From Hellea sp. (GTDB lineage: Bacteria > Pseudomonadota > Alphaproteobacteria > Caulobacterales > Maricaulaceae): a DNA stretch of 64,000 nt. The number at the start of each line of letters is the position of its first letter. Position 1 is the stretch's first letter. The position numbers and the translations under genes were made by a program. Below are positions 8,080 to 42,738 of this stretch, in pieces. The notes below the pieces were generated by a model that ran no database searches, was not told where the DNA came from, and worked only from the letters and a program-made list of their open reading frames with translations. The stretch is from positions 62,001-126,000 of the forward strand of contig JABDKG010000053.1 of the NCBI GenBank assembly GCA_013002305.1, written 5' to 3'.

Positions 8080-8183
8080 AATACACTCGTTTATCCATGG
8101 CGAGGCTCGCCATAGCGGCGCGCTCAATCGCATTACTTGCGACAGACATACCATAAATTCCTGATTTTAAAAGGGATAATAGG

Positions 8184-14397: not shown

Positions 14398-15987
14398 ATG
14401 CACGAATTCGATTATATTATTGTTGGCGCTGGGTCCGCCGGATGCATTTTAGCAAATCGCCTTAGCGAGAACGGACGATTTTCTGTTGCGCTTCTTGAAG
14501 CCGGCGGGAGTGATAAATCTATCTTTGTGGCGATGCCCACGGCTCTTGCTATTCCTATGAGCCGAAAGCGTTTTAATTGGGGGTTTGAGAGCCAACCAGA
14601 GCCGCATTTGGGCGGGCGCGTTATCCCATGTTATCGCGGAAGAGGCCTCGGCGGGTCATCCTCCATCAATGGCATGGTCTATGTGCGCGGCAATCCGGCC
14701 GATATTGACGAATGGGAACGAAGCGGCGCGCGCGGCTGGAATTACGAGAACTGCCTGCCCTATTATAAAAAGCTCGAAAGCTGGCACGGCGGCGAAGATG
14801 AATATAGGGGCGGCGACGGGCCCGTATCGGTGACCAATGGCAATAATATGAAATTATCGCCTCTCTATCAGGCCTTTATCGATGCTGGCATCGAAGCCGG
14901 GTATAAACGCTGCCTTGATTATAATGGCAAGGACCAAGAAGGATTCGGCCCGATGCAAATGAATGTCGATAAGGGCCGCCGCGCGTCAACATCCAGAGCT
15001 TATCTTCGCCCAGCTAAAGGGCGAATAAATTTAAGTGTTTTCAAAAACTTATTGGTAAGTAATATTAGATTTGAGGGGCTAAAAGCAACCGGTGTCAATA
15101 GCAATAAGGGTGTGTTTAAAGCCCGAAAAGAAGTTATCCTTTCAACGGGGGCAATCGGGTCGCCTCACCTTTTGCAAGTTTCTGGAATTGGCCCTAAATC
15201 GGTGCTTAATAATATCGGTGTTGATCCGGTGTTGATAAAATCCGGTGTTGGGACAAATCTAACCGATCATCTTGAAGTTTTCTTCCAATATCAGTGTAAG
15301 GAACCCATAACGCTTAACGGGACATTAGATCCATGGAGCAAGTTTAAAATCGGACTTCGCTGGATTTTATTCAAAGACGGGCTGGGCGCCTCCAATCATT
15401 TTGAAAGCTGCGGCTTTATTAAATCATCCGATCAGAAAGCTTGGCCCGATATTCAATATCATTTCCTGCCGGGCGCGATCAGTTATGACGGAAATTCGGC
15501 TGTCAAAGGCCATGGTTATCAAGTCCATGTCGGCCCCAATAAACCGGCGAGCCGCGGACATGTAATCGCCAAGTCATCTAACATTCAAGACCATCCGGAA
15601 ATCTTGTTCAATTACCTTGAGGACGAACGTGATATGAAGGATTGGATCAACACGATCCGCATAACTCGTCATATATTACAACAATCTGCGCTTAGTCCTT
15701 ATCGCGGCAAAGAAATACAACCCGGGCAGGATGTGGCTTCCGATGATGCCATTGAAACATGGGTGCGGGCAAATGTTGAGAGCGCCTATCACCCGACATC
15801 AACCTGTAAAATGGGTGCGAATAATGACCAAAGCGCGGTCGTTGATGAAAATTGCCGCGTGATTGGAATCGAAAATCTTCGAGTCGTGGACTCATCGATC
15901 TTCCCGACCATACCCAACGGCAATCTCAATGCGCCGACGATGATGGTGGCCGAGCGTGCCGCCGATATTATTCTTGGGAATGTTTAG
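14398..15987 (+). CDS. GMC family oxidoreductase, choline dehydrogenase-like
   Basis: [65 protein letters not shown]. Confidence 0.88.
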
Positions 15988-16453: not shown

Positions 16454-17341
16454 ATGCCTGCGAAAAAAATAGACGGAAAGGCTTATGCAGCCGGATTAAG
16501 AGATCGCATCGCGATCGCCGTAAAAAACCTGCCCGATCAACCTACATTAGCGGTTGTGCTCGTCGGCGAGGACCCGGCTTCTAAAGTCTATGTCAAAAAC
16601 AAAATTAAATTCACGATCGAAACCGGCATGCGTTCGGTTGAGCACAAACTTGATGAAGATGTCAGCGAAGAGGAAGTCATCCGCATTGTTAAAGAGCTTA
16701 ATGCTGATGATAGCGTCGATGGCATTTTGGTTCAGCTCCCACTGCCAAAGCACATTAGCGAAAATCGGGTGATTGAAGAAATTCATCCAGACAAAGATGT
16801 TGATGGTTTGACCGAAACTTCGGCTGGGCGCCTATCGCTCGGTAAGCCAGGTCTACGTCCTTGTACGCCAACCGGATCAGTTATGCTGGCCAAAGACGCG
16901 CTCGGAGAGCTGAGCGGGAAAAATTGCGTTATTCTGGGCCGGTCGATTTTGGTCGGTAAACCAGCCGCCATGTTGTTTCTGGAACAAAATTGTACGGTCA
17001 CAATTGCTCATTCGCGGACTCAGGACTTGCAAGGCGTCGTTGGCGGCGCAGATATTTTGGTTGCCGCTGTTGGCCGGCCTCAAATGGTCAAGGCCGATTG
17101 GCTCAAGAAAGGCGCATGCGTGATTGATGTTGGAATTAACCGGGTGCCGCATCCGGAAAAGCCTGGAAAAACCTATCTGGTTGGCGATGTCGATTACAAA
17201 CCGTCTCTTGAAACAGCTGGATCGATTACGCCAGTTCCGGGCGGTGTTGGGCCGATGACAATTGCTTGCTTGCTAAGAAATACAGTTCTGGCAGCCTGCA
17301 TGCGCCGCGGATGGGACGAACCGGATAATCTAAGTTTCTAA
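16454..17341 (+). CDS. folD: Bifunctional methylene-THF dehydrogenase / methenyl-THF cyclohydrolase
   Basis: [64 protein letters not shown]. Confidence 0.96.
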
Positions 17342-18351
17342 GCCCGCCTTCGGCCGCCGCGCCTTGCTCTAGCGGCTGCTCGGGTCTCAGCCGTAGCGCG
17401 CGGCGCGACCAACGGGCCAATTTTTTCAATAATCTCAGGCAATGTCGGGCGCTGACCCGCATTATATTCGTCCATTGACTTGCGCATAGCTGCAATATGT
17501 TCGGGCTTGGTACCGCAGCACCCGCCGATAATTCGAACGCCGGCGTCTCCGGCTAACTTGACATAATCCCCCATAAGCTGGGGCGTGCCCGTATAAACGG
17601 TTTCTTTGCCTTTCACGACCGGAATGCCGCAATTGGCTTTACCGACGATCACCGCATCCGTATTTTTGGCCGTCATATCGAGCATAGAGGCCATCAAATC
17701 TGAGGCGCCGACGCCGCAATTTGCGCCATAAGCAACCGGCGGCGGCGATAATCCGCTTGCAATATCGTCAAGTCCGTTAGGCGCAATTCCCATCATTGTC
17801 ATGCCTGCCGTATCGAAACTTGCGGTAAAAACATAAGGCATGCCGAGCTCAATTGCGGCATTGGCTGCCGCTTCAATTTCTTCGCGGGCTGACATGGTTT
17901 CAATCCAAACAACATCCGCGCCGCCATCTTTGAGACCCCGAATTTGCTCAAGGAAAAAGGCTTTACAGGTCTCGGGGGTTAAGGCGCCCATGGGCTCAAA
18001 TAGTTCGCCTGTTGGACCGACAGATCCGCCGACGATTACGGGTCTATCCGCCTTTTCAGCGACCCTGCCCGCAACTTCAGCGCCGGCCTTATTAATGGCG
18101 TAAGTGTCATCAGCTGCGTCATGGAGCTTTAACCGAGGTGCGTTGGCGCCAAATGTATTGGTCAAAATAATATCCGACCCGGCATCGACAAACATCTGAT
18201 GCAGCGCTTCAGGCTTCTCGGGATGGGATATATTCCAAAGATCGGGCGGAAACCCCGGTTCAAGCCCCATATTCATGAAATTCGTTCCGGTCGCGCCATC
18301 GGCGAGCAAAAGCAGATTTTGATCCAGGAGTTTTTGTAACGACATACGCAT
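17338..18351 (-). CDS. Betaine--homocysteine S-methyltransferase-like protein with Arg-rich C-terminal tail
   Basis: Homocysteine S-methyltransferase fold: [41 protein letters not shown]; tail [14 protein letters not shown]. Confidence 0.85.
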
Positions 18352-18471: not shown

Positions 18472-20037
18472 CTACATATACAAGCCTTTTAAAGGTCTTT
18501 TCCCAGGTGGTTTTTTCACATCCCCAAAATCTCGTTTTAATTGCCGATTGAGCGACCAACACATCAACACAATAATTGGCAAAATCGGCAACGACCCGAT
18601 CACAGTTATGTCCATCACGATCTTTAAATTATCTGTTAGCACTGTCCCGACTGTCATCAGAAACAAAATGCCGATCCAAGTAAATCTAAGCGCCAAGGAC
18701 GGATCTTGTTTGACATCAAATTCTTCCGAGGAAACGCCTGCGGCGATATAGGCGGCTGAATCCATCGTTGTCGCGTAAAACACGGTGCAAAGAACCATAA
18801 AGAATATCAGGCTTACTTTGCCAAACGGCATATTTGCAGCGATTTTTGCGGTCATGACCGAGAGGCCATTAGGCTCATTCGCCGCCATGATTTCAGTAAG
18901 CGGTAATATTTCTTCAAACTGGAGATGAAGTGCATAGCCTCCAGCGATTGCCAGATAGCTAAGGGTGCCGAGCGAGCCCCAAATTATTGTCCCCAGACAA
19001 ACTTGCCGAATTGTACGGCCGCGCGAAATACGGGCGATGAATAGTCCGACAAATGCTGCAAATGCCAACCACCATGCCCAGTAAAAAATGGTCCAATCCC
19101 GGGGAAATGTCGATTGATCGATAGGATCGGTCCATAAAACAATTCGGAAGAAATCATTCAGCATGATTCCCAAGCTATTTGTTGTCATGTTGAGAATGAA
19201 AAGCGTTGGACCAATCACCAGCAATATCGCCATTAAGAAGCCTGCGAGGATCATATTTAAATCAGCGAGTTTCTGGATGCCGCGTTTAAGTCCCCGGACG
19301 GTACTCGTTCCGAAAATTAGAACCCAGACAATTAGAACCGACATTTTGATCAAAAAGCTATCTTCTATTCCCGTAAGCTCCGCGATGAGGGCTGAGAGCA
19401 GCGGTACACCAATTCCCAATGACGTGGTCGTGCCCGCAATTATGCCCATAATAATCAGCACATCGATTGCGTTTTTAAAGAACGGCTTTCCGGTCTCTGG
19501 GAGAACCTCCTCGCAAGACTCGCTAATTCTTAAAAACGGCCTTTTGACAATGTAGAGCGAATAGGCGATCGGAACGGCCGCTACCGCGTAAAACGCCCAC
19601 GGCACAAATCCCCAATGGATAAACGGATAGAGATGCGCCCATTCATATGCCGTTGTCGACATCGGTTCTATCCCAAAAGGCGGAGATTGAATATAATAGA
19701 TCGGCTCGCCAAAAGCCCAGGTCACAAGCCCGGCCCCAATGCCGGCTGTAAACATCATGGCAACCCAGTGCGGCGTCGAAAATTCGGGGCGTTCATTCGG
19801 CTCCCCCAACCTGACGGAACCATATTTTCCGAATGACAGCCACACCGCATAGAAAAATGCCGCAACGCCAAAGATCAAATAGAGCCAACCCGTCTTGGTT
19901 TTAATCCAGCTACTGGCAGTCTCGGTAGCGGTCGACATCTTACCCGGAAAAGCGACAAAACAGATCCCTAGAAACAAGGCGAATATCAAAGACGGATATA
20001 GGACGGCTTTTTTTGGCATTTGAAGGATTTGGCTCAT
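18472..20037 (-). CDS. BCCT family (betaine/carnitine/choline) transporter
   Basis: About 12 TM; GAGLVTWAFGEPIYY, HWGFVPWAFYAV, FYWAWWLAFAAFVGLFIARISRGRTIR. Confidence 0.93.
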   Translation of the reverse strand: MSQILQMPKKAVLYPSLIFALFLGICFVAFPGKMSTATETASSWIKTKTGWLYLIFGVAAFFYAVWLSFGKYGSVRLGEPNERPEFSTPHWVAMMFTAGIGAGLVTWAFGEPIYYIQSPPFGIEPMSTTAYEWAHLYPFIHWGFVPWAFYAVAAVPIAYSLYIVKRPFLRISESCEEVLPETGKPFFKNAIDVLIIMGIIAGTTTSLGIGVPLLSALIAELTGIEDSFLIKMSVLIVWVLIFGTSTVRGLKRGIQKLADLNMILAGFLMAILLVIGPTLFILNMTTNSLGIMLNDFFRIVLWTDPIDQSTFPRDWTIFYWAWWLAFAAFVGLFIARISRGRTIRQVCLGTIIWGSLGTLSYLAIAGGYALHLQFEEILPLTEIMAANEPNGLSVMTAKIAANMPFGKVSLIFFMVLCTVFYATTMDSAAYIAAGVSSEEFDVKQDPSLALRFTWIGILFLMTVGTVLTDNLKIVMDITVIGSLPILPIIVLMCWSLNRQLKRDFGDVKKPPGKRPLKGLYM

Positions 20038-20202
20038 TGCGCGAAGCTTAAAGAACTCAATCCATCATCGTCAAACATTGTTTGACCCATTACCGAACAT
20101 AGAGGCGTGCAAATAAATTCTCCTAATTTAGTATTTTTGAATGCTGGATATCGGTATTTGGTGTAAAAGAAAGCTAGGAGACACGCGTATATGGGAGGCC
20201 GT

Positions 20203-21336
20203 ATGACCGCAATTTCAGGCAAGGTTTCGACAGATTCCGCAAGCGGCGGAATCCGTTTAGGAGGTAAAGTCCTGCATCCGCTTTGGCTGCGCGAACGTGT
20301 CACGGAAGCCCACGCTCTCGACTCTATTAGCCATCAACGATTGTACCAAACAGCCGAACTTGATCCCGATTTAATGGTGGAAAACGTGCTCATTAGCGAA
20401 AATCGGAAACAATTGTCATTGCAGTTTTCTGATGGGTATCAAGCCGAGTTAAACCTAGCCGAAATCGCGATAGAACTCGGACTTGCTCAAAATCCAGAGA
20501 GTATCCCTCTTCCAAAGAGCTGGCAATCATCTCTAGAGTTTAAGCGCTTTAGCTGGAACGACCTTGATGACCCCAATGAAATGAAGGCGTTGCTGACGGC
20601 CTATTTTGAAAACGCTTTTTGTATCATGGACGGCACGCCGACTGACCAAGATAGTTTGAAACAACATGCCCGCAGGTTTGGTTTTCTTCGAGCCACAAAT
20701 TTTGGCGAATTATTCAATGTTGAAACCAAGCCAGCGGCGACGGATCTCGCCTACACCGATGCTGCCTTAGCTTCTCACACGGATAACCCCTATCGTTGGC
20801 CAGTTCCGTCCATCCAATATCTCCATTGCATAGCCAATGGCGTCGAAGGTGGGTTATCAACACTTGTCGATGGCATGGCTGTCGCCAATACAATCGCGGA
20901 AGAGAATCAGGATTGGGCCGACATATTGGAATCCACACCTGTTAGATTTCGCTATGACGGCCCAACGGGAATTTATGAAGATACAGCCCCGCTAATTGCG
21001 CGGGACTATCGCGGCTATGTCAATCATATTCGGTTCAGCCCAAGGCTTGATTTTGTCCCTGCCCTTGATCCTGAGACTCTCACAATTTTTTACGCCGCAC
21101 GCCGCCGCATGCATGAGCTTGCCAATGATTTGGCCTTTCAGATCCAATTCCCGTTTAAACCTGGTACGCTATTAATGATGAATAATTATAGACTCTTTCA
21201 CGGCCGCACCGCCTTTAATGGCAAACAAGGCTATCGCCATCTTCAAGGCTGTTATATCGATCATGACGGCCCGCAATGTCTTTACAGAATGCTGGCAATC
21301 GGCAACACAGACACACATGTTCGGCGAGAAACTTAA
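20203..21336 (+). CDS. TauD/gamma-butyrobetaine-hydroxylase superfamily Fe(II)/2OG dioxygenase, TmpA-like candidate
   Basis: HTDNPYRWPVPSIQYLHC and NNYRLFHGRTAF Fe ligand motifs; N-terminal DUF971-like domain (LHPLWLRERVTEAHALD) without Cys cluster; followed directly by HD-domain gene. Confidence 0.8.
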   Translation: MTAISGKVSTDSASGGIRLGGKVLHPLWLRERVTEAHALDSISHQRLYQTAELDPDLMVENVLISENRKQLSLQFSDGYQAELNLAEIAIELGLAQNPESIPLPKSWQSSLEFKRFSWNDLDDPNEMKALLTAYFENAFCIMDGTPTDQDSLKQHARRFGFLRATNFGELFNVETKPAATDLAYTDAALASHTDNPYRWPVPSIQYLHCIANGVEGGLSTLVDGMAVANTIAEENQDWADILESTPVRFRYDGPTGIYEDTAPLIARDYRGYVNHIRFSPRLDFVPALDPETLTIFYAARRRMHELANDLAFQIQFPFKPGTLLMMNNYRLFHGRTAFNGKQGYRHLQGCYIDHDGPQCLYRMLAIGNTDTHVRRET

Positions 21337-21894
21337 ATGAAAACAGTCTCATTTACAAAAATGTCCGATGGCACGGCGGAAGATTATAAATTTCTTGCAG
21401 ATCATGAAGCCGAATATGCCAAAGAACTCCCCAACCGGATCATGGACGCTCTCGCAGGTCTGAAAAACTCGCTCGCGGGCTATAAAGTTGATCGGCTAGA
21501 ACACAGCCTGCAAACGGCGACCCGCGCTGAGCGCGACGGCGCCGATATCGATTGGATCGTCAGCGCGCTCGTCCACGACATTGGCGATGATCTGGCGCCG
21601 TTTAACCATGACAGTCTCGCCTCAAATATCCTTAAACCCTATGTGCGCGATGAGTGCAGTTGGACAGTGCAGCATCACGGCATTTTCCAGTATAAATATT
21701 TTGCCGATAAAGTTGGCCTTGACGCAGAAGCCCGGCAAAAATTTGCTGACCATGAGCATTTTGATGCGGCCGTACGATTTTGTGAGTGCTGGGATCAAAC
21801 CTCATTTGATCCGGAATATGAAACATTTGATCTCGAACATTTTCGGCCCATGGTCGAACAGGTCTTTACCAGAGAGGCTTGGGCAACGACCTAA
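21337..21894 (+). CDS. HD-domain protein of the PhnZ/TmpB-like diiron oxygenase type (candidate)
   Basis: LEHSLQTATRAERDGADIDWIVSALVHDIGDDLAPFNHDSLASNILKPYVRDECSWTVQHHGIFQ; abuts upstream dioxygenase stop. Confidence 0.72.
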   Translation: MKTVSFTKMSDGTAEDYKFLADHEAEYAKELPNRIMDALAGLKNSLAGYKVDRLEHSLQTATRAERDGADIDWIVSALVHDIGDDLAPFNHDSLASNILKPYVRDECSWTVQHHGIFQYKYFADKVGLDAEARQKFADHEHFDAAVRFCECWDQTSFDPEYETFDLEHFRPMVEQVFTREAWATT

Positions 21895-24054: not shown

Positions 24055-25677
24055 CTAACGTAAGCTTTTTGCCTGCTCTCTCAATTGTTTTTTCTGAATT
24101 TTACCGGTGGCGGTTTTTGGCAGCTCTCCAAACACTACTTTTTTAGGACGTTTGAACCGCGCCATATTGTCTTTACAAAACTCAATCACCTCGGCTTCGT
24201 TCGTGTCGGCGCCCGGTGCAAGCTCAACAAATGCACATGGGACTTCGCCCCATTTTTCATCGGGCATGGCGACGACCGCCGCCATATCAACGGCAGGATG
24301 TTTGTAGAGCGTATTTTCGACCTCGACTGATGAGATGTTTTCTCCGCCGGATATAATGATATCTTTGGCCCGATCCTTCAGTTGAATATAGCCGTCCGGA
24401 TAAATGACGCCGAGGTCTCCGGATTGAAACCAGCCATCTTTGAAAGCTTCTTCGGTCGCTTTGTCGTCCTTAAGATAGCCCTTCATCAGCACATTACCGC
24501 GCATTACGATCTCGCCCATAGACTCGCCGTCATGAGGCACCGGATTGCCGTCCTCGCCGACAACTTTGGCCGCCTCAAGATTGGTAAATATAACGCCTTG
24601 GCGCGCATTGAGATCGGCTTGATCGGAAATGGATTTATTTTTCCATTCCTCCTGCGCGCAGGCTTGCAGCACATGGCCGTAGGTTTCAGTCAGGCCGTAA
24701 ACATGCATGATTTCGTAGTCCATATGGGCCATGGCTTCGAGCACGCTGGCGGGCGGCGGCGCGCCTGCCGTCATGGCTTTAACTGTATGTGTAAATCTGG
24801 GTTTCATATCCTCGGGCGCACTGGCGAGCATATTCATAATAATCGGCGCCCCGCCAAAATGCGTAATATTGTGCTTACCGGCCTGCTCGAAAAACTTCTC
24901 GGGAGAGAAGCTACGCAGACAAACAATCGTGCCGGCCATCAAGGTCATGGTCCAAGCGTGGCCCCAGCCATTACAATGAAACATCGGCACTGTATAAAGA
25001 TATCGCGGATGCATCGGCAGAGCCCAGCTCGCTACCGTCCCCATAGCCATCAAATAGGCGCCCCGGTGGTGATAGACTACGCCTTTGGGACGGCCTGTAG
25101 TGCCCGATGTGTAGTTTAGCGCCATAGCCTGCCATTCATCGGCAATCGGCTCGGGCTTATAATCGGGGCTCTGATCGCCAATAAATTCTTCGTAAGTCGT
25201 CGCGCTGCTCGGCATATCCGGCCTGGTATCCGCAGACGCGTCATCAACAATGATCACTTCCGGTTGGAGCTTACTGGTTTTCAGCGCTTCAACGACAACC
25301 GGATAGAGCTCCCGATCAGCAATGAAGAGCTGACTCTCACTATGATCGATGATGTAGGCGACGGTATCAGCATCGAGGCGCGTATTGATCGAGTTTAGCA
25401 CGCACCCCGACATTGGAACGCCAAACTGACATTCAAACATCTCGGGCGTGTTATGGAGTAGCACAGAAATTGTATCATTGCGCCCAAGACCGCGCGCATT
25501 AAGCGCTGACGCTAGCTGCAAACATCTGCCTCTCGATTCTGACCATGTATAGGAACGATCTTCATAAACCACGGCCTGCCGCTTCGGATAAATCGCGGCG
25601 GTGCGATCGAGAAAGCTCCCGACGGTAAGAGGTGCATAATTGGCAGCATTTTGGCCAAGCTGATCGTAGGCGTCCAT
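24055..25677 (-). CDS. AMP-dependent acyl-CoA synthetase (long-chain / DmdB-like clade not resolved)
   Basis: YTSGTTGRPKGVVYHHRG, GWFQSGDLGVIYPDGYIQLKDRAKDIIISGGENIS, KTATGKIQK. Confidence 0.9.
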   Translation of the reverse strand: MDAYDQLGQNAANYAPLTVGSFLDRTAAIYPKRQAVVYEDRSYTWSESRGRCLQLASALNARGLGRNDTISVLLHNTPEMFECQFGVPMSGCVLNSINTRLDADTVAYIIDHSESQLFIADRELYPVVVEALKTSKLQPEVIIVDDASADTRPDMPSSATTYEEFIGDQSPDYKPEPIADEWQAMALNYTSGTTGRPKGVVYHHRGAYLMAMGTVASWALPMHPRYLYTVPMFHCNGWGHAWTMTLMAGTIVCLRSFSPEKFFEQAGKHNITHFGGAPIIMNMLASAPEDMKPRFTHTVKAMTAGAPPPASVLEAMAHMDYEIMHVYGLTETYGHVLQACAQEEWKNKSISDQADLNARQGVIFTNLEAAKVVGEDGNPVPHDGESMGEIVMRGNVLMKGYLKDDKATEEAFKDGWFQSGDLGVIYPDGYIQLKDRAKDIIISGGENISSVEVENTLYKHPAVDMAAVVAMPDEKWGEVPCAFVELAPGADTNEAEVIEFCKDNMARFKRPKKVVFGELPKTATGKIQKKQLREQAKSLR

Positions 25678-25806
25678 TCATATATCCTTTTTCCATCGTT
25701 TCTGACAGGCCCGGGGAAATTAGGCAATATCGGGATCGGTAATTCACCGCTCTTAATAACTCTAATTGGTCTATCGAATGGTAGTGTTTCTGACTATGTC
25801 CGGCCC

Positions 25807-27057
25807 ATGCGATATAATGCGCTGCAGATTCTCAAACAGGGCCTGACAGGTCATAAAGGCTGGAAACCGGCTTGGCGTAAGGCCGAGCCTAAGTTTGACT
25901 ATGATATTATTATCGTGGGCGGCGGCGGTCATGGTCTAGCGACTGCCTATTACCTAGCCGAAAAATTTGAACAAAAACGGATCGCAGTCCTTGAAAAGGG
26001 CTGGATTGGCGGCGGTAATGTTGGCCGCAATACGACGATTATCCGCTCCAACTATATGCTCCACGAGAATGAAGGGTTTTATGAATTTTCGCTTCGCCTT
26101 TGGGAGAAGCAAGAAAAGGACCTGAATTATAACACCATGGTCTCGCAGCGCGGCGTGCTCAACCTCGCCCACACAGATCCGCAGCGCGATGCCTATGCCC
26201 GGCGCGGCAATGCCATGATCTTAAACGGCGCGGACGCAAAACTGCTGGATGTCGAAGGCGTACGTAAATTGTGCCCGTTCCTCAACTTTGACAATGCGCG
26301 GTTCCCGATACGCGGCGGTCTCTGGCAAAAGCGCGGCGGGACCGTTCGACATGACGCGGTAGCATGGGGCTATGCCCGTGCCGCTGATATGCGAGGTGTT
26401 GATATTATCGAAAACTGCGAAGTTACCGGGTTTGCTATCCAAAGCGGCATCTGCACTGGCGTTCAAACAACTCGCGGGCAAATCAAAGCTAAAAAAATAG
26501 GCGTAGCCGTCGCTGGATCGTCCTCCAAAGTTTTGACGATGGCGGGCATGCGTCTGCCGATGGAAAGCCACGTCCTTCAAGCTTTTGTCTCCGAAGGCCT
26601 GAAACCCACATTACAGGGCGTAATCACTTACGGTGCCGGGCATTTTTATGTCAGCCAGTCCGATAAAGGCGGGCTCGTCTTTGGCGGTGATATTGACGGC
26701 TATAATAGCTACGCCCAGCGCGGAAATCTCCCTGTTGTCGAAGATGTCTGCGAGGGCGGCGTTTCGCTTATGCCCATGATTGGCAAAGCGCGGCTCCTGC
26801 GGATGTGGGGCGGAAATGTTGACATGTCGATGGACGGGTCTCCTATTATCGACAAAACCCATATTGACGGACTCTATTTCAATGGCGGCTGGTGTTATGG
26901 CGGTTTTAAAGCAACCCCGGCTTCCGGCTATTGCTTTGCCGAGCTCATTGCGACAGATTCGCCTAACGACACCGCCAAAAATTTCCGAATGGATCGTTTC
27001 TCTCGCGGCCTGATGATCGATGAAAAAGGACAGGGCTGTCAGCCCAATCTCCACTAA
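25807..27057 (+). CDS. soxB: Sarcosine oxidase subunit beta
   Basis: DYDIIIVGGGGHGLATAYYLAE, GWIGGGNVGRNTTIIRSNY; start at MRYNALQILKQGL; followed by soxD, soxA, soxG. Confidence 0.95.
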   Translation: MRYNALQILKQGLTGHKGWKPAWRKAEPKFDYDIIIVGGGGHGLATAYYLAEKFEQKRIAVLEKGWIGGGNVGRNTTIIRSNYMLHENEGFYEFSLRLWEKQEKDLNYNTMVSQRGVLNLAHTDPQRDAYARRGNAMILNGADAKLLDVEGVRKLCPFLNFDNARFPIRGGLWQKRGGTVRHDAVAWGYARAADMRGVDIIENCEVTGFAIQSGICTGVQTTRGQIKAKKIGVAVAGSSSKVLTMAGMRLPMESHVLQAFVSEGLKPTLQGVITYGAGHFYVSQSDKGGLVFGGDIDGYNSYAQRGNLPVVEDVCEGGVSLMPMIGKARLLRMWGGNVDMSMDGSPIIDKTHIDGLYFNGGWCYGGFKATPASGYCFAELIATDSPNDTAKNFRMDRFSRGLMIDEKGQGCQPNLH

Positions 27058-27320
27058 TGATCATCAATCACCCACTCTTTGGCCCTCGGGACGCTGCAGA
27101 ATTTGTCTATCTCGGCGATGCGTCTTTGATGAACCGTCCCGACCCGAAAGCCGAAGACGCAATTCAGCAGTTTTACGAATACATGTATCTACGGGACAAT
27201 CCGGCGGGCGAGCATCGGGAACTTTGGTTTCATGAGCAAGGCGACCGGTCATGGTTGATAGTCACACGTAACACATTTACCCATGAAATCACCAAGGTCG
27301 AGCTTGCGAGGCAATCCTAA
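27057..27320 (+). CDS. soxD: Sarcosine oxidase subunit delta
   Basis: 87 aa; MIINHPLFGPRDAAEFVYLGDA..EYMYLRDNPAGEHRELWFHEQGDRSWLIVTRNT. Confidence 0.94.
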   Translation: MIINHPLFGPRDAAEFVYLGDASLMNRPDPKAEDAIQQFYEYMYLRDNPAGEHRELWFHEQGDRSWLIVTRNTFTHEITKVELARQS

Positions 27321-30148
27321 TGAGCCTTGTCGATAATTCCAAACCGCTCAATTTTTCCTTTGATGGCAAGTCCTTTAAAGGCTTTGAAGGCGACACGCTC
27401 GCCTCTGCATTACTTCGTAATAATGTCAGGCTTGTTGGTCGGTCCTTTAAATATCACCGGCCTCGCGGAATCATAGGCGCGGGCAGTGAAGAGCCAAATG
27501 CGCTCGCCGAAATTCATCAAGACGGCGTGATCGAGCCCAATCGCCGCGCGACTATGATAAAGCTATTCGATGGTTTGGCGGTCAAAAGCCAAAATGGCTC
27601 TCCAAGTCTGAACTTCGATATTCTGGCGATCAATGATCTTGTTTCCCCGTTCCTTTCCGCCGGGTTTTACTACAAAACCTTTATGTGGCCGAGGGTTTTT
27701 TGGGAGAAGGTTTACGAGCCTGCCATCCGCCGAGCTGCGGGGCTTGGACGTTTATCAACCAATCCAGATCCAGATAGTTATGACAAAGGCTTCCTCCACT
27801 GCGATACGCTGATCATCGGCGCGGGCGCGGCGGGGTTGCAGGCGGCGTTGATCGCTGGACGTGCCGGCGCGCGCGTTATTCTCGCCGATGAAGATTTTCA
27901 GATGGGAGGGCGACTGCTTTCCGACCCCCAATTAATTGATGGAATCTGCGGCCAGGGATGGGCCGAGCAAACTATTGCCGAGCTACATACCCTGCCCAAT
28001 GTAAGGCTTTTACCGCGCACAACGGTTTATGGACAATATGACCATGGCATTTACGGGGCACTGGAAACCAGAACCGATAAAATCGGCGCACCGGGAGCTC
28101 GGCAGGTTCTTTGGCGGATCTATAGCCAAAACGCCATTCTGGCAGCAGGCGCAATCGAACGACCGATCGCGTTTGCCAATAATGACCGGCCCGGCATTAT
28201 GCTGGCCAGCGCCATGCGAACCTATGAAAACCGCTTTGGCATTGATTTCGGCGACTATCCGGTCCTGACCAATAACAACAGCACGAAGCGCAATCACGCT
28301 GCCTCCCGCATTGATACGCGCGACGCCCAATGGGTCAGCGATACGCGGGGACGCAAAGGTCTCAATTCTGTTTCCCTGAATTCCGGACAAAACATTGAAA
28401 CCGATTGGCTCGGCGTTAGCGGCGGGTGGAACCCCAATTTGCACCTGACGTGCCACAAGCGCAGCCGCCCCAAATGGGATGAAACCAAAGCCTGTTTTGT
28501 GCCAGATATCAATACGTTACCAGAAAATATGCAAGTAATCGGAGCGGCCAATGGTGAGTTTTCGACATATGAAGCCTTTGCGTCAGCTAAGTCAGCTTGC
28601 GCGTCCCTTGGGCACAAATCCGGCAAACCACCAAAAGCCGAAGACACGCCGCTCTCGATCAATGCATTCTGGCATGTGAAGGGTAAGAAACGAGCTTGGG
28701 TAGACTTCCAAAACGATGTCACGTCGAAAGACATCACCCTCGCCCATCAAGAAGGTTTTTCTTCGGTTGAACACGTCAAGCGCTACACCACTCTCGGCAT
28801 GGCGACGGATCAGGGCCGGACATCTAATGTTGTCGGTCTGGCTATTCTCGCGGACGCGCGCGGGCAGAGCATTCCGGAAACCGGCACAACGATATTTCGT
28901 CCGCCCTATGCGCCCGTTCCCATCGGTGCTTTTGCGGGACCACACAAAGGACAGCATTTCAAACAGACCCGTTTGACGCCAAGCCACAAATACGCCGCTG
29001 AACAAGGTGCGGCCTTTGTTGAAACCGGCTATTGGAAACGAGCGCAGTGGTTTGCCAGAAACGGCGAGCAAGGATGGCGGGATAGTGTCGATCGTGAAGT
29101 CATCACGACGCGCAGCTCAGTCGGCATTTGCGACGTCTCAACGCTCGGTAAAATAGATGTTCAAGGCAGAGATGCGGGCGCCTTCCTCAACAAGGTCTAT
29201 GTCAATTCGTTTAAGCTACTTAAGCCGGGTAAGTGCCGCTATGGCCTGATGCTGCGTGAAGATGGTATTGCCATGGATGACGGGACGTCAGCCCGGTTCT
29301 CTGACACACATTATGTTATGACAACAACGACCGCGAATGCGGGCCTGGTTTATCGCCATCTCGAATTTGCGCGGCAATGCCTTTTCCCGGATATGGATGT
29401 GCACCTTATCTCGACAACGGAGCAATGGGCACAATACTCCGTCGCTGGCCCCAATGCCCGCAAGCTCCTTCAAAAAATAGTCGATCAAGAATATGACATA
29501 TCTAACGAAGCCTTCCCCTATATGGCTTGCGGTAAAGTCACAGTCTGCGGCGGCACGCGGGCGCGGTTGTTTCGTCTCTCTTTCTCCGGTGAATTGGCCT
29601 ACGAAATTGCAGTCCCGACCCGTTACGGCGATGCGCTCATCCGCGCCATCTTGGAAGCGGGCGAGGAATTTGGCGCCTGCATGTATGGCACAGAAGCGCT
29701 CGGCGTTATGCGGATCGAAAAAGGTCACGCGGCGGGCAATGAGCTGAACGGCACGACCACCGCGCTTCATCTTGGACTTGGAGGCTTTGTGTCCAAGAAG
29801 AAAGACTGTATCGGCAAGGTTTTGTCACAACGCGAAGGCCTGGTCGCTGAAGATGGATTGCGCCTCGTCGGTTTCATCGCTGTTGACTCCAAAGACCAGA
29901 TCACTAACGGCGCGCATTTCATCAATATAGGTGATCCCAAAGACGCCGCTCATGATCAGGGCTATATGAGCTCCGTCGCCTATTCACCAGAACTTGGCCA
30001 TTATGTTGGGTTAGGCTTCATCAAGGGAGGCGATAAGCGTAAGGGCGAAGAGGTCATGGCCGTTGATTTTGTCCGCGACAACCATATCAATGTCCGTATC
30101 GTCAGCCCGCATTTCGTAGACCCAGATGGAGATCGCCTCCGTGTCTAA
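27320..30148 (+). CDS. soxA: Sarcosine oxidase subunit alpha
   Basis: 942 aa; N-term 2Fe-2S-like fold FEGDTLASALLRNNVRLVGRSFKYHRPRGI, FAD GAGAAGLQAAL, C-term GcvT domain (IEKGHAAGNELNGTTT). Confidence 0.95.
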   Translation: MSLVDNSKPLNFSFDGKSFKGFEGDTLASALLRNNVRLVGRSFKYHRPRGIIGAGSEEPNALAEIHQDGVIEPNRRATMIKLFDGLAVKSQNGSPSLNFDILAINDLVSPFLSAGFYYKTFMWPRVFWEKVYEPAIRRAAGLGRLSTNPDPDSYDKGFLHCDTLIIGAGAAGLQAALIAGRAGARVILADEDFQMGGRLLSDPQLIDGICGQGWAEQTIAELHTLPNVRLLPRTTVYGQYDHGIYGALETRTDKIGAPGARQVLWRIYSQNAILAAGAIERPIAFANNDRPGIMLASAMRTYENRFGIDFGDYPVLTNNNSTKRNHAASRIDTRDAQWVSDTRGRKGLNSVSLNSGQNIETDWLGVSGGWNPNLHLTCHKRSRPKWDETKACFVPDINTLPENMQVIGAANGEFSTYEAFASAKSACASLGHKSGKPPKAEDTPLSINAFWHVKGKKRAWVDFQNDVTSKDITLAHQEGFSSVEHVKRYTTLGMATDQGRTSNVVGLAILADARGQSIPETGTTIFRPPYAPVPIGAFAGPHKGQHFKQTRLTPSHKYAAEQGAAFVETGYWKRAQWFARNGEQGWRDSVDREVITTRSSVGICDVSTLGKIDVQGRDAGAFLNKVYVNSFKLLKPGKCRYGLMLREDGIAMDDGTSARFSDTHYVMTTTTANAGLVYRHLEFARQCLFPDMDVHLISTTEQWAQYSVAGPNARKLLQKIVDQEYDISNEAFPYMACGKVTVCGGTRARLFRLSFSGELAYEIAVPTRYGDALIRAILEAGEEFGACMYGTEALGVMRIEKGHAAGNELNGTTTALHLGLGGFVSKKKDCIGKVLSQREGLVAEDGLRLVGFIAVDSKDQITNGAHFINIGDPKDAAHDQGYMSSVAYSPELGHYVGLGFIKGGDKRKGEEVMAVDFVRDNHINVRIVSPHFVDPDGDRLRV

Positions 30149-35813: not shown

Positions 35814-37346
35814 TTAGCTAATATTACTATCCTCAAAGCTGGCCTTTTTGTCGGCCATGTATTTTAGCAAGCGTGCATCAATGTCTGGATCAAGTTCCGG
35901 TGGTTGATAATCCGCCAGCATAGTCTTGTAGATTTTTTCGGCGCGGTCTTCGGCTGATAATGACCCATCTTCGACCCATTGCTCATAGCTGTTATTGTCA
36001 GCCACTTCAGATGTATAGAATGCGGTTTTAAAGTTTTTCTGGGTATGTTCACAGCCAAGGAAATGTTGTCCCGGGCCAACTTCTGCGAGAGCATCTAAGG
36101 CCTGACCATTTTCGCTCATATCAACGCCTTTGGCATAAACCGCCATCATGCCAGCTTGATCGCAGTCCATGATAAACTTCTCGTATCCCATGGAGAGACC
36201 GCCTTCTTGCCAGCCTGCTGTGTGGAGCATGAAATTCACGCCAGCCAGTAATCCGTTTTGCAGCGTGTTAGCGGCTTCGTAAGCTGCCTGTGCATCCGGG
36301 AGTTTAGAGGCGTTAAACCCGCCGGCTGAGCGGAAAGGTACGCCGAGCCGCCGCGCAAGCGCCGCGCCCATATTGATGATAAGCGAAGCTTCAGGCGTTC
36401 CGAATGTCGGTGCGCCGGATTGCATCGACATGGACGACACGAAGTTACCGTAAATCACAGGTGCACCGGGACGAACCAATTGCGCCAATGCCATCCCAAC
36501 CATGCCTTCCGCGAGGCTCTGCGCTGCAACGGCGGCAGAGGTCACGGGCGACATTGCGCCTGCCACCACAAATGGACTTGGGATAACAGCTTGGTTATGC
36601 CGAGCATAGTTCTTGAGCGAGCCGAGCATGACCCGGTCAAATGTCATCGGTGAATTTGCGTTGATCAAGCTGACCAACACGCAGTTCTCTTCGACAAAGT
36701 CATCGCCAAAAACAATCTTAGCCATATCGACCGTATCAAGCGCGCGACGCGGCGCGGTGACAGAACCCATGAAGGGCTTGTCGGAATATTTGATATGGGA
36801 GTAGACCATATCGTAATGGCGCTTGTTGACCGGCAGATCGACAGGCTCACAAACCGTCCCGCCGCTGTGATGCAGATGCGGTGACATATAAGCGAGTTTT
36901 ACGAAATTGCGGAAATCCTCAATCGTAGCGTAACGGCGGCCGCCCTCTTTTGAATAGACGAACGGCGGGCCGTAAGCCGGAACTAAAACCGTGTTAACGC
37001 CGCCGATTTCGATGTTGTTTGCGGAATTACGCGCATATTGCGTAAACTGAGCCGGTGCTGATATTTGAATGATCTCACGCAGCATACCCCGCGGAAAACG
37101 AACGCGCTCACCATCTGCTGATGCGCCTGCCGCAACGAACAAGTCAATAGTCTCTTTGTCGTCTTGGATATCAATCCCTATTTCCTCAAGAATTGTATCA
37201 GCATTGTATTCGAGGATTCCTAGATCAGTATCGCCTAAAACCGAATAGGGCGGAATTTTCCGCACGATAAACGGGTCTCTAGGAGCCTTCGCGGCTGCAT
37301 TTGCTGCGGCGCGACCTGCGCGGCCACCTCTTGCTCGTCTTGCCAT
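35814..37346 (-). CDS. MttB superfamily (COG5598) methyltransferase without pyrrolysine; candidate glycine-betaine/quaternary-amine:corrinoid methyltransferase
   Basis: 510 aa continuous ORF, no in-frame UAG; ADTILEEIGIDIQDD, FMGSVTAPRRALDTVDMAKI, TFGTPEASLIINMGAALARRLGVPFRSAGG; Arg-rich N-term MARRARGGRAGRAAANAAAK. Confidence 0.88.
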   Translation of the reverse strand: MARRARGGRAGRAAANAAAKAPRDPFIVRKIPPYSVLGDTDLGILEYNADTILEEIGIDIQDDKETIDLFVAAGASADGERVRFPRGMLREIIQISAPAQFTQYARNSANNIEIGGVNTVLVPAYGPPFVYSKEGGRRYATIEDFRNFVKLAYMSPHLHHSGGTVCEPVDLPVNKRHYDMVYSHIKYSDKPFMGSVTAPRRALDTVDMAKIVFGDDFVEENCVLVSLINANSPMTFDRVMLGSLKNYARHNQAVIPSPFVVAGAMSPVTSAAVAAQSLAEGMVGMALAQLVRPGAPVIYGNFVSSMSMQSGAPTFGTPEASLIINMGAALARRLGVPFRSAGGFNASKLPDAQAAYEAANTLQNGLLAGVNFMLHTAGWQEGGLSMGYEKFIMDCDQAGMMAVYAKGVDMSENGQALDALAEVGPGQHFLGCEHTQKNFKTAFYTSEVADNNSYEQWVEDGSLSAEDRAEKIYKTMLADYQPPELDPDIDARLLKYMADKKASFEDSNIS

Positions 37347-37358
37347 AATATGTCCTCT

Positions 37359-39302
37359 TTATGACCTGCGCCGTTTGCGGCGTCTTTGTTGGTTGTTTTC
37401 ACTTTGTGCTGGCGCCGTCGGAAACTTCATCGAGCCGACGAAATAATCCTGAAATTTTGGCTCCAGCGCGGTTTCCATTTTTTCGATATGTTTGACCGCT
37501 TCAATAATTTTGGCTCGGTGACCTCGATCAAGAAGGGCCATCGCGGCACCCATGCCCGCTGCATTACCGACAGAACGGATGATATCCGCAGGCGCATTGG
37601 GGATGATACCAATGTCTGACACATATTTGGGATCGAGATGCGTCCCAAAAGCCCCTGCCAATAAAACTTCGTCAAACTGTTCACAGCCAAGAGATTCGGC
37701 GAGCAACTGCGCGCCAGCATAAAGCGCAGCCTTAGCGAGCTGCACAGCACGAATATCTGTCTGTTTGATGTAAAGCGGGTTTACTGCTCTATCCAACAGA
37801 AGATATTTTTGACTTTTGCCTTCATTGTCCGGCAGCATGCGTCCCGATGTATCTCCATTCACAAATAGACCACCTCGATCCACCAGCTCAGCGTTTGCAA
37901 GTTCAACCATGACTTCGAAAATGCCGGAGCCGCAAATACCTGTAATTTTATGGTTAGAAAGATCATCTTCATCGGACAACCATTCATCATGGCCGATAAT
38001 TTTAACGCTCGCCTTCTTGGTGATCGGGTCAATCCGCACGCGTTCAATCGCGCCAAGGCTGGCGCGAACGCCGCAGCTTATTTCTGCGCCTTCCAGCGCC
38101 GGACCTGTTGGCGAAGAGGCTGCCGTAACCTTGCCATTGTGGGAAAGAACGAGCTCAGCATTTGTGCCAATATCTACTAGTAAGACTGAACGATTTTCCA
38201 TGATTGCAATCTGCGTGAGATATGCCGCCGTTGTGTCTGCCCCGACATGGCCGCCAATGAGCGGAAACAGCGACACCTGCGCCGTGTCGGATAATCCGAG
38301 GTCCAGTCGCCCAGCTGGAATATCAAGCCAGTCTTTAATGGCGAGCGTAAAGGGCGCGACGCCAAGCTCGACCGGATTTGCCCCGATGACCAGATGATGC
38401 ATGATCGGATTACCGACGCAGATGACATCCAGAAGTTGGTTAGGCCCAAGCGCTAGCTTTTCAACCGCTTCGGCGAGCATAGATTTAATCTGACCGCGAA
38501 TAGCGGCGGTTAGCTTAATTTCGCCGCCTTTATTTATCATAATGTATGAGACTCGGCTCATCAGATCTTCGCCGTAGCGAATTTGAGGGTTCATGGCGGC
38601 CTTTTCATAGACCGGCTGACCCGATGCCAGATTAAACACATACATCGCAACAGACGTCGAGCCGACATCAATGGCCGCGCCGTAAAGATCAAACGGAGAT
38701 GGCGGCCAGACATCAATGATTGTATCATCGTTTCGAACCACCGAAATGACCGTGCGATCATGCTTGCGCAAAATGTCCTGCAACTTGATCAGCATGCGGT
38801 GAGTTGGACGAACGCACAATCCATGGTGTTCGTTTAGGGCTGCAACCAATGCCTCCCCGTCACTTGGGTTTGCTTCGAGCGTAGGTACGGGCAATTGCAC
38901 CATATACAGACGAATTGCCGGGTTCAGGGGCACATCAATCGGCGTACTTTTTTTATGTATGGAGCTTTCGGCTTCGCGGCTATCGCTCGGGACTTCTACG
39001 ACGAGATCTCCGCGTATTTTAGCGCGGCAGGCCAGGCGCCGCGTGTCTGACAGCTCTCCATCATGAATGGCTTTCTTCTCGGTTGGGGTCAGCTTGCCGA
39101 TATTTTCAACGGTAACATCCAGATTAAACTTGGCGTGTTTACCAGTGTCGATCTCGCACTGGCAGCGCTTGCACAGACCCATACCGCCGCAAATGGATTG
39201 GATATCAACACCCGCGTTAAGCGCTACGTCATAGACGGTTTGGCCATCCTGTGCCTCAGTCCGAATACCGGACGGTGTGAATATGACAGTGTGCTTGCCC
39301 AT
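37359..39302 (-). CDS. RACo-like reductive activator of corrinoid proteins (N-term 2Fe-2S ferredoxin + ASKHA domain)
   Basis: N-term CGGMGLCKRCQC..CRAKIRGDLVVEVP; YGAAIDVGSTSVAMYVFNLASG, VDIGTNAELVLSHNGKVTAASSPTGPALEGAEISCG, LAGAFGTHLD. Confidence 0.9.
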   Translation of the reverse strand: MGKHTVIFTPSGIRTEAQDGQTVYDVALNAGVDIQSICGGMGLCKRCQCEIDTGKHAKFNLDVTVENIGKLTPTEKKAIHDGELSDTRRLACRAKIRGDLVVEVPSDSREAESSIHKKSTPIDVPLNPAIRLYMVQLPVPTLEANPSDGEALVAALNEHHGLCVRPTHRMLIKLQDILRKHDRTVISVVRNDDTIIDVWPPSPFDLYGAAIDVGSTSVAMYVFNLASGQPVYEKAAMNPQIRYGEDLMSRVSYIMINKGGEIKLTAAIRGQIKSMLAEAVEKLALGPNQLLDVICVGNPIMHHLVIGANPVELGVAPFTLAIKDWLDIPAGRLDLGLSDTAQVSLFPLIGGHVGADTTAAYLTQIAIMENRSVLLVDIGTNAELVLSHNGKVTAASSPTGPALEGAEISCGVRASLGAIERVRIDPITKKASVKIIGHDEWLSDEDDLSNHKITGICGSGIFEVMVELANAELVDRGGLFVNGDTSGRMLPDNEGKSQKYLLLDRAVNPLYIKQTDIRAVQLAKAALYAGAQLLAESLGCEQFDEVLLAGAFGTHLDPKYVSDIGIIPNAPADIIRSVGNAAGMGAAMALLDRGHRAKIIEAVKHIEKMETALEPKFQDYFVGSMKFPTAPAQSENNQQRRRKRRRS

Positions 39303-39709
39303 TAGTTCGCGCGAACACCTTCTATTGGATAGCCTTCATATTGCGGTAGACCATCAGTAATATCGTAATGGGCTGGCTTTTCTTCGACGTAAATATGGCC
39401 CTTTACCTTGAGGCCTGATGTATCGTCGATACAACCCGTTAATACGCTCATGGTCGGCTTTTCGTGCATGGACCAGAACATATAGCATCCGCAATTCGGA
39501 CAATGACCGGATTCTGATCTATCAGAGACCGGCAACCAATTGACTTCGCCTTTAATTGTGATGTTTTCGCGCGGCGCGCCAGCGGCCGAAATATACAATC
39601 CTGTCAACTTTTGACATTGCTTGCAGTGGCAATACCAAATGTCGGACAGCCCAGCCGCCTCAAAGGTGACCGAGCCGCACAAACAGGAGCCTTTATAGAT
39701 TTTTACCAC
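39302..39709 (-). CDS. GFA/CENP-V domain protein (glutathione-dependent formaldehyde-activating enzyme family)
   Basis: GSCLCGSVTFEA, HCKQCQKLTG, HCPNCGCYMFW; GTG start overlaps upstream stop by 1 nt. Confidence 0.83.
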   Translation of the reverse strand: MVKIYKGSCLCGSVTFEAAGLSDIWYCHCKQCQKLTGLYISAAGAPRENITIKGEVNWLPVSDRSESGHCPNCGCYMFWSMHEKPTMSVLTGCIDDTSGLKVKGHIYVEEKPAHYDITDGLPQYEGYPIEGVRAN

Positions 39710-40617
39710 TAAGCGCTCCGGCGACGGCGTCGTGCGCCTCTTGCGCCGCGTCCGCCCTCTTCGCCAGCTGCAGGTACTGGACGGTAATATTTGATCCAAT
39801 TACCGCAATTCGCGTCATTATTATTAAGAACGTCTGCGGCCCGAACGGCTGGCACCAAACCCTCATGGAGTGGATTGACAATCGCAGACGTCATACCGGC
39901 GCAGGCCAGCATGGGAAGGAAGGCGTTGTTGATCGCATGCCGATTAGGAAGACCGAAAGCGACGTTTGACGCGCCGCAGGTCGTATTGACACCTAGTTCA
40001 TTTCTAAGGCGCCCGACAAGTTTGAAAACGTCAGTACCCGCCGAGCCGATCGCGCCAATAGGCATAACAAGCGGATCAACGACGATGTCTTCGGGCTTAA
40101 TGCCGTAGTCAGAGGCCCGGTTGACGATGCGCTTAGCGACTTCGAAACGGACGTTTGGATCTTCTGAAATGCCGGTATCATCGTTTGAAATGGCAACAAC
40201 TGCGCAATCATATTTTGCCACTAACGGCAGAACCCGTTCCATGACTTCTTCTTCAGCAGTCGTCGAATTCACGAGTGGACGGCCCTTATAAACCGATAGG
40301 CCAGATTCAAGCGCTTCGATAATCGAACTATCAATACACAATGGAACGTCTGTAAGGTTTTGAATTAAGGGAATTACTTCGGCCATTATGGCAGGTTCAT
40401 CCGCAAGTGGGACACCGACATTGACGTCGAGTATCTGAGCGCCGGCCTCAACTTGGGCCAGAGCTTCTTTTTTGACGCGCCAGTAATTGCGCTCTTTGAG
40501 TTCCTTGGAAAAGAGCTTGCGGCCGGTTGGATTGATCCGCTCGCCAATCATGGCGAAAGGTTGGTCAAAGCCGATAACGACTTCTTTGCTTGCTGAGGTT
40601 AAAACTGTTCGGGCCAT
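39709..40617 (-). CDS. Methyltetrahydrofolate:corrinoid methyltransferase-like (pterin-binding/DHPS fold) with Arg-rich C-terminus
   Basis: MIGERINPTGRKLFSKEL, VEAGAQILDVNVGVPLADE, PLCIDSS, STTAEEEVMERVLPL, GASNVAFGLPNRHAINNAFL; tail GGRGARGARRRRRSA. Confidence 0.9.
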   Translation of the reverse strand: MARTVLTSASKEVVIGFDQPFAMIGERINPTGRKLFSKELKERNYWRVKKEALAQVEAGAQILDVNVGVPLADEPAIMAEVIPLIQNLTDVPLCIDSSIIEALESGLSVYKGRPLVNSTTAEEEVMERVLPLVAKYDCAVVAISNDDTGISEDPNVRFEVAKRIVNRASDYGIKPEDIVVDPLVMPIGAIGSAGTDVFKLVGRLRNELGVNTTCGASNVAFGLPNRHAINNAFLPMLACAGMTSAIVNPLHEGLVPAVRAADVLNNNDANCGNWIKYYRPVPAAGEEGGRGARGARRRRRSA

Positions 40618-40626
40618 AAAATTTTC

Positions 40627-41685
40627 CTATGTAATGGCTGCTATATTTGCAAATGACTGTTCGGGCGCCCAGGGTTTACGGTCGCCGAGCACACCGGAGC
40701 ACTTGACGACATCACCGACCCATTTTTCCTGACGGTAAGCCATGACATGGACTCCGGCGACTCCGTCAATTTCTTTGACCTGTTGCATAATCTCGGCGCA
40801 TATTTTGCGGCCTTCAAGTTTGGGCTTTTCGGATTGCTCGAGACGCCTCACAAGCTCATCCGGAATATGGACGCCCGGCACATTGCTGCGCATCCATGTG
40901 GCGGTTTTAGCTGAGGGCAACACGCCTGCCCCGATAATGATATAGGCTTTTTCCGTTAGGCCGAGATCACGAGCTTTAGCCATAAAGTCCTTGAGCATCG
41001 GAATATCAAAACAATATTGAGACTGAATAAATTCTGCACCTGAATCGATTTTTTTGGCGAGTTGATCAGCACGATTGGCAATAGGCGGCACAAACGGATT
41101 AATCGATGACCCGATCATCATACGCGGGGCGAGATCGAGTTTGCGACCTGAGAGAAATTGGCTGTCATCCCGCATGATTTTAATGGTTTGAGCCAGAGAT
41201 ATTGAATCCAGATCAAAAACGGGTTTAGCTTCCGGATGATCCCCGGCCCCTACGTCATCTCCGGAAAGACACAGAACGCTACAAACGCCTAGCGCAGCTG
41301 CGCCAAGCGTATCGCCCTGGATAGAAATCCTGTTTCGGTCTCGGCAGGAAACCTGCAAAATCGGAGAATATCCAGCGCGGGTCAGGATCGCGCAAACGGC
41401 AAGGCTCGACATATGGCAATGGGCGCCCGATCCGTCTGTGGCGTTAATCGCGTCGACATATCCGTCAAATAAAGACGCACGCCTTAGAACCTCTGTGGGA
41501 TCAGCTGAATCCGGAGGCGCTATCTCTGTGGTGACGGCGAATTGCCCGGCCCGCAATACTTGCTCGAACCGCCCATGAGAGACATGTCCTTCAAGACGGG
41601 GAAGTGGATCGCCCGGGTTGGTGCCGACTTTTGCCGGATTGCGCGGTACTTCAATGTCTATCACTGACCTTCTCCGCAATTTCAC
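40627..41685 (-). CDS. metF: Methylenetetrahydrofolate reductase
   Basis: FAVTTEIAPPDSADPTEVLRRA, AINATDGSGAHCHMSSLAVCAILTRAG, GAEFIQSQYCFD. Confidence 0.88.
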   Translation of the reverse strand: MKLRRRSVIDIEVPRNPAKVGTNPGDPLPRLEGHVSHGRFEQVLRAGQFAVTTEIAPPDSADPTEVLRRASLFDGYVDAINATDGSGAHCHMSSLAVCAILTRAGYSPILQVSCRDRNRISIQGDTLGAAALGVCSVLCLSGDDVGAGDHPEAKPVFDLDSISLAQTIKIMRDDSQFLSGRKLDLAPRMMIGSSINPFVPPIANRADQLAKKIDSGAEFIQSQYCFDIPMLKDFMAKARDLGLTEKAYIIIGAGVLPSAKTATWMRSNVPGVHIPDELVRRLEQSEKPKLEGRKICAEIMQQVKEIDGVAGVHVMAYRQEKWVGDVVKCSGVLGDRKPWAPEQSFANIAAIT

Positions 41686-42734: not shown

Positions 42735-42738
42735 ATCA

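Follow-up and report, generated by a model that had tools for sequence, protein, structure and literature searches.

The window analysed here is the whole stretch of 64,000 nucleotides from Hellea sp. (contig JABDKG010000053.1), and all positions refer to it. It contains a dioxygenase gene followed by an HD-domain gene, with genes related to betaine transport, oxidation and demethylation on both sides. The features are as follows.

14398..15987, + strand: choline dehydrogenase BetA-like GMC oxidoreductase (TIGR01810 score 740, cut-off 732)
17338..18351, - strand: betaine-homocysteine methyltransferase-like protein (PRK07534; NCBIfam score 467, cut-off 338)
18472..20037, - strand: BCCT-family transporter of the betaine/carnitine/choline type, divergent from the pair (Pfam BCCT, 3e-140)
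20203..21336, + strand: TauD/GBBH-fold 2-oxoglutarate/Fe(II) dioxygenase (P0001), member of the "Asp clade" (Pfam TauD, 1e-40)
21337..21894, + strand: HD-domain protein (P0002), candidate diiron oxygenase (Pfam HD, 3.4e-05)
25651..30148, + strand: sarcosine oxidase-like SoxB, with an ORF beginning 5' of the domain, and SoxA (TIGR01373 and TIGR01372, over cut-off)
35814..37346, - strand: MttB-superfamily methyltransferase, MtgB-like (PF06253, 2e-215)
37359..43428, - strand: corrinoid system, whole set (Pfam)
37359-39302, - strand: RACo-type activator (Pfam)
39709-40617, - strand: pterin-binding methyltransferase (Pfam)
42739-43428, - strand: B12-binding corrinoid protein (Pfam)

The dioxygenase stop codon TAA ends at 21336 and the ATG of the HD gene is at 21337, on the same strand and with zero gap. 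The dioxygenase comprises 377 aa when read from 20203 and 381 aa from an in-frame alternative ATG at 20191. The start at 20203 is likelier, because GGGAGG lies immediately 5' of this ATG and the alignments of several orthologues begin at about residue 4-5. The HD protein has 185 aa. A 2OG dioxygenase with an HD gene directly after it had been described in a sequence-only reading of this DNA, and both ORFs were found with all the motifs quoted there (HTDNPYRWPVP, FHGRTAF, EHSLQTATRAERDGAD, LVHDIGDDL and HHGIFQ). The pairing is not due to chance, since homologues of the two genes are also neighbours in Hellea and its relatives, in Rhodospirillaceae, in Dongia, in small-genome Alphaproteobacteria and in Gammaproteobacteria; one gammaproteobacterial case is on a Pseudomonas aeruginosa plasmid. 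In one genome (G281, locus L198) a TauD dioxygenase gene at 7481-8767 is followed by a broken HD gene at about 8777-9105.

On the upstream side of the pair, beyond the BCCT gene, are located the BHMT/MtgE-like gene, FolD and the BetA-like GMC dehydrogenase. The BCCT transporter scored 363 bits with the CaiT model and 355 bits with the glycine betaine BCCT model, both under cut-off. The BHMT-type protein may be the methionine-synthase module MtgE, a reading argued for S. meliloti-type homologues (PMC12478193). Downstream of the pair are located SoxB/SoxA and the MttB-RACo-pterin-B12 set. This set resembles MtgBCD, which performs glycine betaine demethylation in marine bacteria (PMC12478193), and the glycine-betaine demethylation system that had been proposed for the window is indeed there. 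No PF12974 phosphonate-binding transport protein and no BKACE was found in the window's genome (97% complete), nor any second GBBH-type gene in the same genome. With BKACE not found, we rejected BKACE-type carnitine catabolism for this genome.

By sequence, the best PDB match of the dioxygenase was TmpA (6npb, 1.7e-50), followed by GBBH (9e-29). Its predicted model (pLDDT 92) also gave TmpA as the top Foldseek match (3e-36). TmpA and TmpB of Leisingera convert 2-(trimethylamino)ethylphosphonate to glycine betaine and phosphate. The score with the TmpA model NF049936 was 289.2, under NCBI's curated equivalog cut-off of 400; the scores with the GBBH model TIGR02409 (222.9, cut-off 414.75) and the TMLH/TMLD model TIGR02410 (145.2, cut-off 268.3) were also under their cut-offs. 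A tree with TmpA, proposed as a check in the sequence-only reading, placed the window dioxygenase outside TmpA, in a separate "Asp clade", and this split was supported at 100/99.

The Fe triad (H196, D198 and H337) and the 2OG-binding Arg (R349) are retained, as are the aromatic-cage positions F171, F175, Y188 and Y355; the cage remains aromatic throughout the Asp clade proper. In BBOX, two Asn residues bind the substrate carboxylate (PMC4736438). The counterpart of BBOX Asn191 in trimethyllysine hydroxylase is Asp231, thought to bind the alpha-ammonium group (PMC7764450). Both Asn positions are changed in the window dioxygenase:

20743..20745, + strand: codon of Asp185 (numbering from the ATG at 20191), at the position of BBOX Asn191 and TMLH Asp231 (alignment with BBOX/TmpA and relatives)
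21037..21039, + strand: codon of Ser283, at the position of BBOX Asn292, the second acid-binding Asn (alignment)

In the Asp clade together with its sister clade, the BBOX-191 position is Asp in 38/38 proteins and the BBOX-292 position is Ser in 36/38, whereas TmpA-type proteins have Asn at both (10/10). With the thresholds used, the Asp clade is told apart from TmpA by only five alignment positions, including both of these acid-binding Asn sites. The sister clade consists of L100, L101 and L195a (the first TauD of L195); there the Asp is kept and the cage residues are lost (W, A/E, M/L). Two sister-clade members lie within or beside carnitine-type gene clusters. The first 90 residues of the window dioxygenase contain no Cys, against five in human GBBH, confirming that the GBBH Cys cluster is missing as had been noted; TmpA has none either. 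A GBBH identity was ruled out by the cut-off, the Cys cluster and the acid-binding Asn positions.

The HD protein matched PhnZ and TmpB by sequence mainly over residues 47-92 (profile 2e-11). Its predicted model (pLDDT 95) was compared with the PDB by Foldseek, which gave PhnZ and TmpB at E ~1e-7, MIOX at 0.026 and the first hydrolase at 0.13. By predicted structure, the HD protein therefore falls among the oxygenases of the HD fold. Its scores were 37.6 with the TmpB model NF049941 (curated cut-off 300), 39.6 with the Phn-HD model TIGR03276 (cut-off 214.6) and 19.7 bits with MIOX PF05153 (Pfam gathering score 25), all under the thresholds. The TmpA, TmpB and Phn-HD cut-offs do work, since control relatives pass them: L107 scored 537.9 for TmpA and 364.7 for TmpB, and L105 scored 215.0 for Phn-HD.

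Six diiron ligands (H56, H80, D81, H91, H114 and D153) are invariant in 110 relatives, at positions common to TmpB/PhnZ-type proteins. The sequence-only reading had made its HD assignment depend on the diiron oxygenase residues, and all six are retained in the HD protein. With the ligands complete and the predicted fold nearest to PhnZ/TmpB, the protein is likely an oxygenase and not a phosphohydrolase, as that reading had proposed. Public annotations of the family include "HD domain-containing protein", "phosphohydrolase" and "inositol oxygenase family protein".

The metal site is as in MIOX, PhnZ and TmpB, but the pocket is different and strictly conserved in the HD family. The YxxE loop (Y24/E27 and Y30/E33 in TmpB and PhnZ, defined in PMC8177086) is absent from the HD protein, which has LxxY. 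The AKRY after the last His ligand is replaced by FQxx, with F and Q in 110/110 HD relatives; A and K occupy these positions in 7/7 TmpB/PhnZ-type control proteins. The residue after HDIG is Asp in all 110 relatives. The codons concerned are:

21481..21483, + strand: Tyr49, where the YxxE loop of PhnZ/TmpB has its Glu; Leu46 takes the place of the loop Tyr
21685..21690, + strand: Phe117-Gln118, in place of the AK of the AKRYL motif in PhnZ/TmpB

In PhnZ, the Lys and Arg probably hold the phosphonate; the roles of individual PhnZ Lys/Arg residues are not treated in PMC6581173 or PMC9381506. From the alignments, both the dioxygenase and the HD protein appear to be altered at the part that would meet the phosphonate or carboxylate. 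Because the residues that would hold a phosphonate are replaced, the pair probably acts on a different compound.

The HD family, whose signatures are HDIGD and HGxFQ, is common in marine and soil Alphaproteobacteria; it spans well over a hundred species of this class and is also present in some gammaproteobacteria. Of the 385 alphaproteobacterial genomes sampled, about 107 encode it (E ~1e-24 or better), and 199 stretches in the species-level collection encode a relative. Directly upstream of HD, some loci have a gene for an Asp-clade TauD, others one for a PhyH-type 2OG-oxygenase, and the rest neither; a TauD or PhyH oxygenase gene is present there at about 45 of 110 loci. Since more than half of the loci have no 2OG-oxygenase directly upstream, HD may have a separate function. 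HD and GBBH-type dioxygenases co-occur in 51 of 65 genomes against 18 expected, and HD is present in 16 of 17 Asp-clade genomes, in counts that ignore relatedness. The HD tree contains about 20 changes of partner type; with these and the many solitary HD genes, a strict one-to-one partnership was rejected.

A PhyH-type 2OG-oxygenase gene is directly 5' of HD in many Rhodobacteraceae (L020, L026, L052, L113, L132 and others), and the closest solved relative of this partner by sequence is 6zyk (4e-35). The window's own genome encodes a second HD paralogue, 47% identical (L002:1429-2082, contig C37). It follows hisF/hisE-like genes and precedes an enoyl-CoA hydratase-like gene, and no dioxygenase adjoins it. 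Three genomes (G263, G340 and G338) contain an Asp-clade dioxygenase and, separately, an Asn/Asn dioxygenase whose HD neighbour has YxxE/AKRYL. Because both coexist there, the Asp-clade and phosphonate-type systems are not interchangeable.

Gene calls in high-GC loci were made by a simple script and several neighbour names were assigned by eye. On the P. aeruginosa plasmid pF045_1, the gene order is TauD-HD-choline-binding protein-GMC-ALDH. Its choline-binding protein is over the cut-off, the GMC belongs to the choline dehydrogenase subfamily but is under the BetA equivalog cut-off, and the ALDH is well under the BADH cut-off. Genome G356 has GMC and ALDH homologues, HD-TauD, LysR and a Rieske oxygenase. 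Genome G663, with names given by eye from sequence, has TauD-HD-ABC binding protein beside a GlxA-type regulator, with BKACE-like, carnitine dehydrogenase-like and second TauD genes as further neighbours. In Mesorhizobium (L032, L035, L036, L040 and L048), HD is located between BKACE (Pfam) and a carnitine dehydrogenase-like gene. Hellea loci contain MttB (in nine), SoxBA and BCCT. No phosphonate genes were noticed around any of these loci.

Thus the assignment as a TmpA/TmpB-like pair stood at the level of superfamilies, with TmpA the closest solved dioxygenase and PhnZ and TmpB the closest HD proteins, and failed at the level of membership, with scores far under the cut-offs. The substrate named with it, 2-(trimethylamino)ethylphosphonate, was not upheld: the scores are well under the cut-offs, Asn is changed to Asp and Ser, and YxxE and AKRY are lost. 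A phosphonate origin of the glycine betaine, also proposed, found no backing in a genome without PF12974 and in relatives placed in choline/carnitine gene sets.

Our preferred explanation, held with modest confidence, is a two-step reaction on a non-phosphonate trimethylammonium compound, namely hydroxylation followed by diiron cleavage. The pair probably takes apart a choline- or carnitine-like compound. The aromatic cage of the dioxygenase would hold the trimethylammonium group, and Asp185 and Ser283 would recognise the far end of the substrate, replacing the acid-holding Asn pair of GBBH that is conserved in TmpA; an amino or hydroxyl group at that end may be what they bind. Hydroxylation by the iron-oxo species would then take place at a carbon further along the chain. 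The HD protein would act as a PhnZ/TmpB/MIOX-like diiron oxygenase with a conserved pocket of its own and cleave the bond adjoining the new hydroxyl. This would leave a shorter betaine; glycine betaine is the most plausible one, and it may be demethylated by the window's corrinoid and sarcosine-oxidase genes. What makes it the likeliest product is the repeated presence nearby of unrelated demethylation genes (MttB, Sox, Rieske and GcvT-like); judged from this gene context, the pair probably supplies it for corrinoid demethylation in the window. Against this explanation, the HD family extends beyond the pair and possibly has its own function, and the YxxE of PhnZ and TmpB is missing, though MIOX lacks it too. 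We found no biochemistry of the Asp clade in the literature.

Candidate substrates are trimethyllysine, a homologue of choline, or some other quaternary amine with an amino or hydroxyl end. The first two are our leading guesses, each of them unlikely taken singly, and confidence in them overlaps with that in the two-step explanation because they are special cases of it. If the substrate were a choline homologue (3-hydroxypropyl-trimethylammonium, for example), a vicinal diol would be formed by the dioxygenase, and HD cleavage in the style of MIOX would give glycine betaine and formaldehyde. The MIOX reaction is a diol cleavage. The pF045_1 operon, with its choline-binding protein, choline-dehydrogenase-like GMC and betaine-aldehyde-dehydrogenase-like ALDH, points this way, as does a GMC near the pair in the window, L143, L153 and L157, and Asp and Ser would suit a hydroxyl group. 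However, this compound is not evidenced in the habitat and the carnitine-cluster contexts are left unexplained; we regard this substrate as improbable.

An HD protein acting as a hydrolase (phospho- or thioesterase), merely near to dioxygenases and sharing no two-step cleavage with them, is likewise unlikely. The frequent lack of an adjoining dioxygenase and the public "phosphohydrolase" annotation agree with it, and so does the Mesorhizobium position between BKACE and the carnitine dehydrogenase-like gene, where no thioesterase was seen although L158 has one. But only oxygenases came before E 0.1 in the fold search, the six-ligand diiron set is complete, and the family pairs with two unrelated 2OG-oxygenase families.

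The trimethyllysine hydroxylase case, in which the HD protein would cleave 3-hydroxy-trimethyllysine to gamma-butyrobetaine and so feed carnitine/betaine catabolism, we hold to be quite unlikely. Asp185 at the position of TMLH Asp231, the putative ammonium-binding residue, and relatives whose carnitine clusters include a second TauD dioxygenase are in its favour; the TMLD score (145 against 268), Ser at the BBOX Asn292 position, and a genome with neither BKACE nor a second GBBH-type gene are against it. A diverged TmpA/TmpB still turning 2-(trimethylamino)ethylphosphonate into glycine betaine and phosphate has the best solved relative, the close HD relationship to TmpB, the retained cage and the nearby glycine-betaine genes on its side, but the phosphonate reading was ruled out as very improbable by the cut-offs (289 against 400 and 37.6 against 300), by Asp and Ser at the Asn191 and Asn292 positions, by the loss of YxxE and AKRY from the entire HD family, by gene context, the genome having no PF12974 protein although the BCCT carrier could import the phosphonate, and by the genuine phosphonate-type pairs that coexist with the Asp clade in other genomes.

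The HD family, if an oxygenase, would add an extra reaction to quaternary-amine turnover. Such genes should not be tallied as phosphonate genes in metagenomes.

Only three HD-domain oxygenases, MIOX, PhnZ and TmpB, are listed in PMC8177086, and no description of the Asp clade or the HD branch was found in the open-access literature. Members of the HD branch are candidates for a fourth group. More tentatively, we might speculate that this fourth diiron group cleaves a C-C bond in a hydroxylated quaternary amine and is fed by two unrelated 2OG-oxygenase families. Oxygenases would then lead to glycine betaine from a so far unrecognised compound derived from choline or lysine.

Compared with known systems, the pair is most similar to TmpA/TmpB of Leisingera caerulea (6npb, 6npa), an adjacent TauD-fold dioxygenase and HD protein with the same folds, Fe triad, aromatic cage and six diiron ligands; it differs in D185, S283, the missing YxxE/AKRY and the below-cut-off scores, and window-type pairs have no phosphonate genes noticed in their context. 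PhnY/PhnZ (2-aminoethylphosphonate; 4mlm) has the same logic of a 2OG-oxygenase and an HD diiron oxygenase, and PhnZ is the best HD fold match, but the HD pocket differs, with no YxxE/AKRY and about 20% identity over the fold. The dioxygenase shares the fold, Fe triad and trimethylammonium cage with BBOX (4bg1), but has no Cys cluster, Asp/Ser at Asn191/Asn292 and a score of 223 against a cut-off of 415. With TMLH it shares the Asp at the BBOX Asn191 position (Asp231, here Asp185), whereas the second acid-binding position is Ser and the score is 145 against 268. MIOX (2huo) is likewise a diiron HD oxygenase without YxxE and the next fold match after PhnZ/TmpB; it is a larger protein and matches weakly by sequence (19.7 bits, cut-off 25). 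Like MtgBCD (PMC12478193), the window has an MttB-family protein, a corrinoid protein, a pterin methyltransferase and an activator, and this system, distinct from the dioxygenase-HD pair, is the likely downstream consumer.
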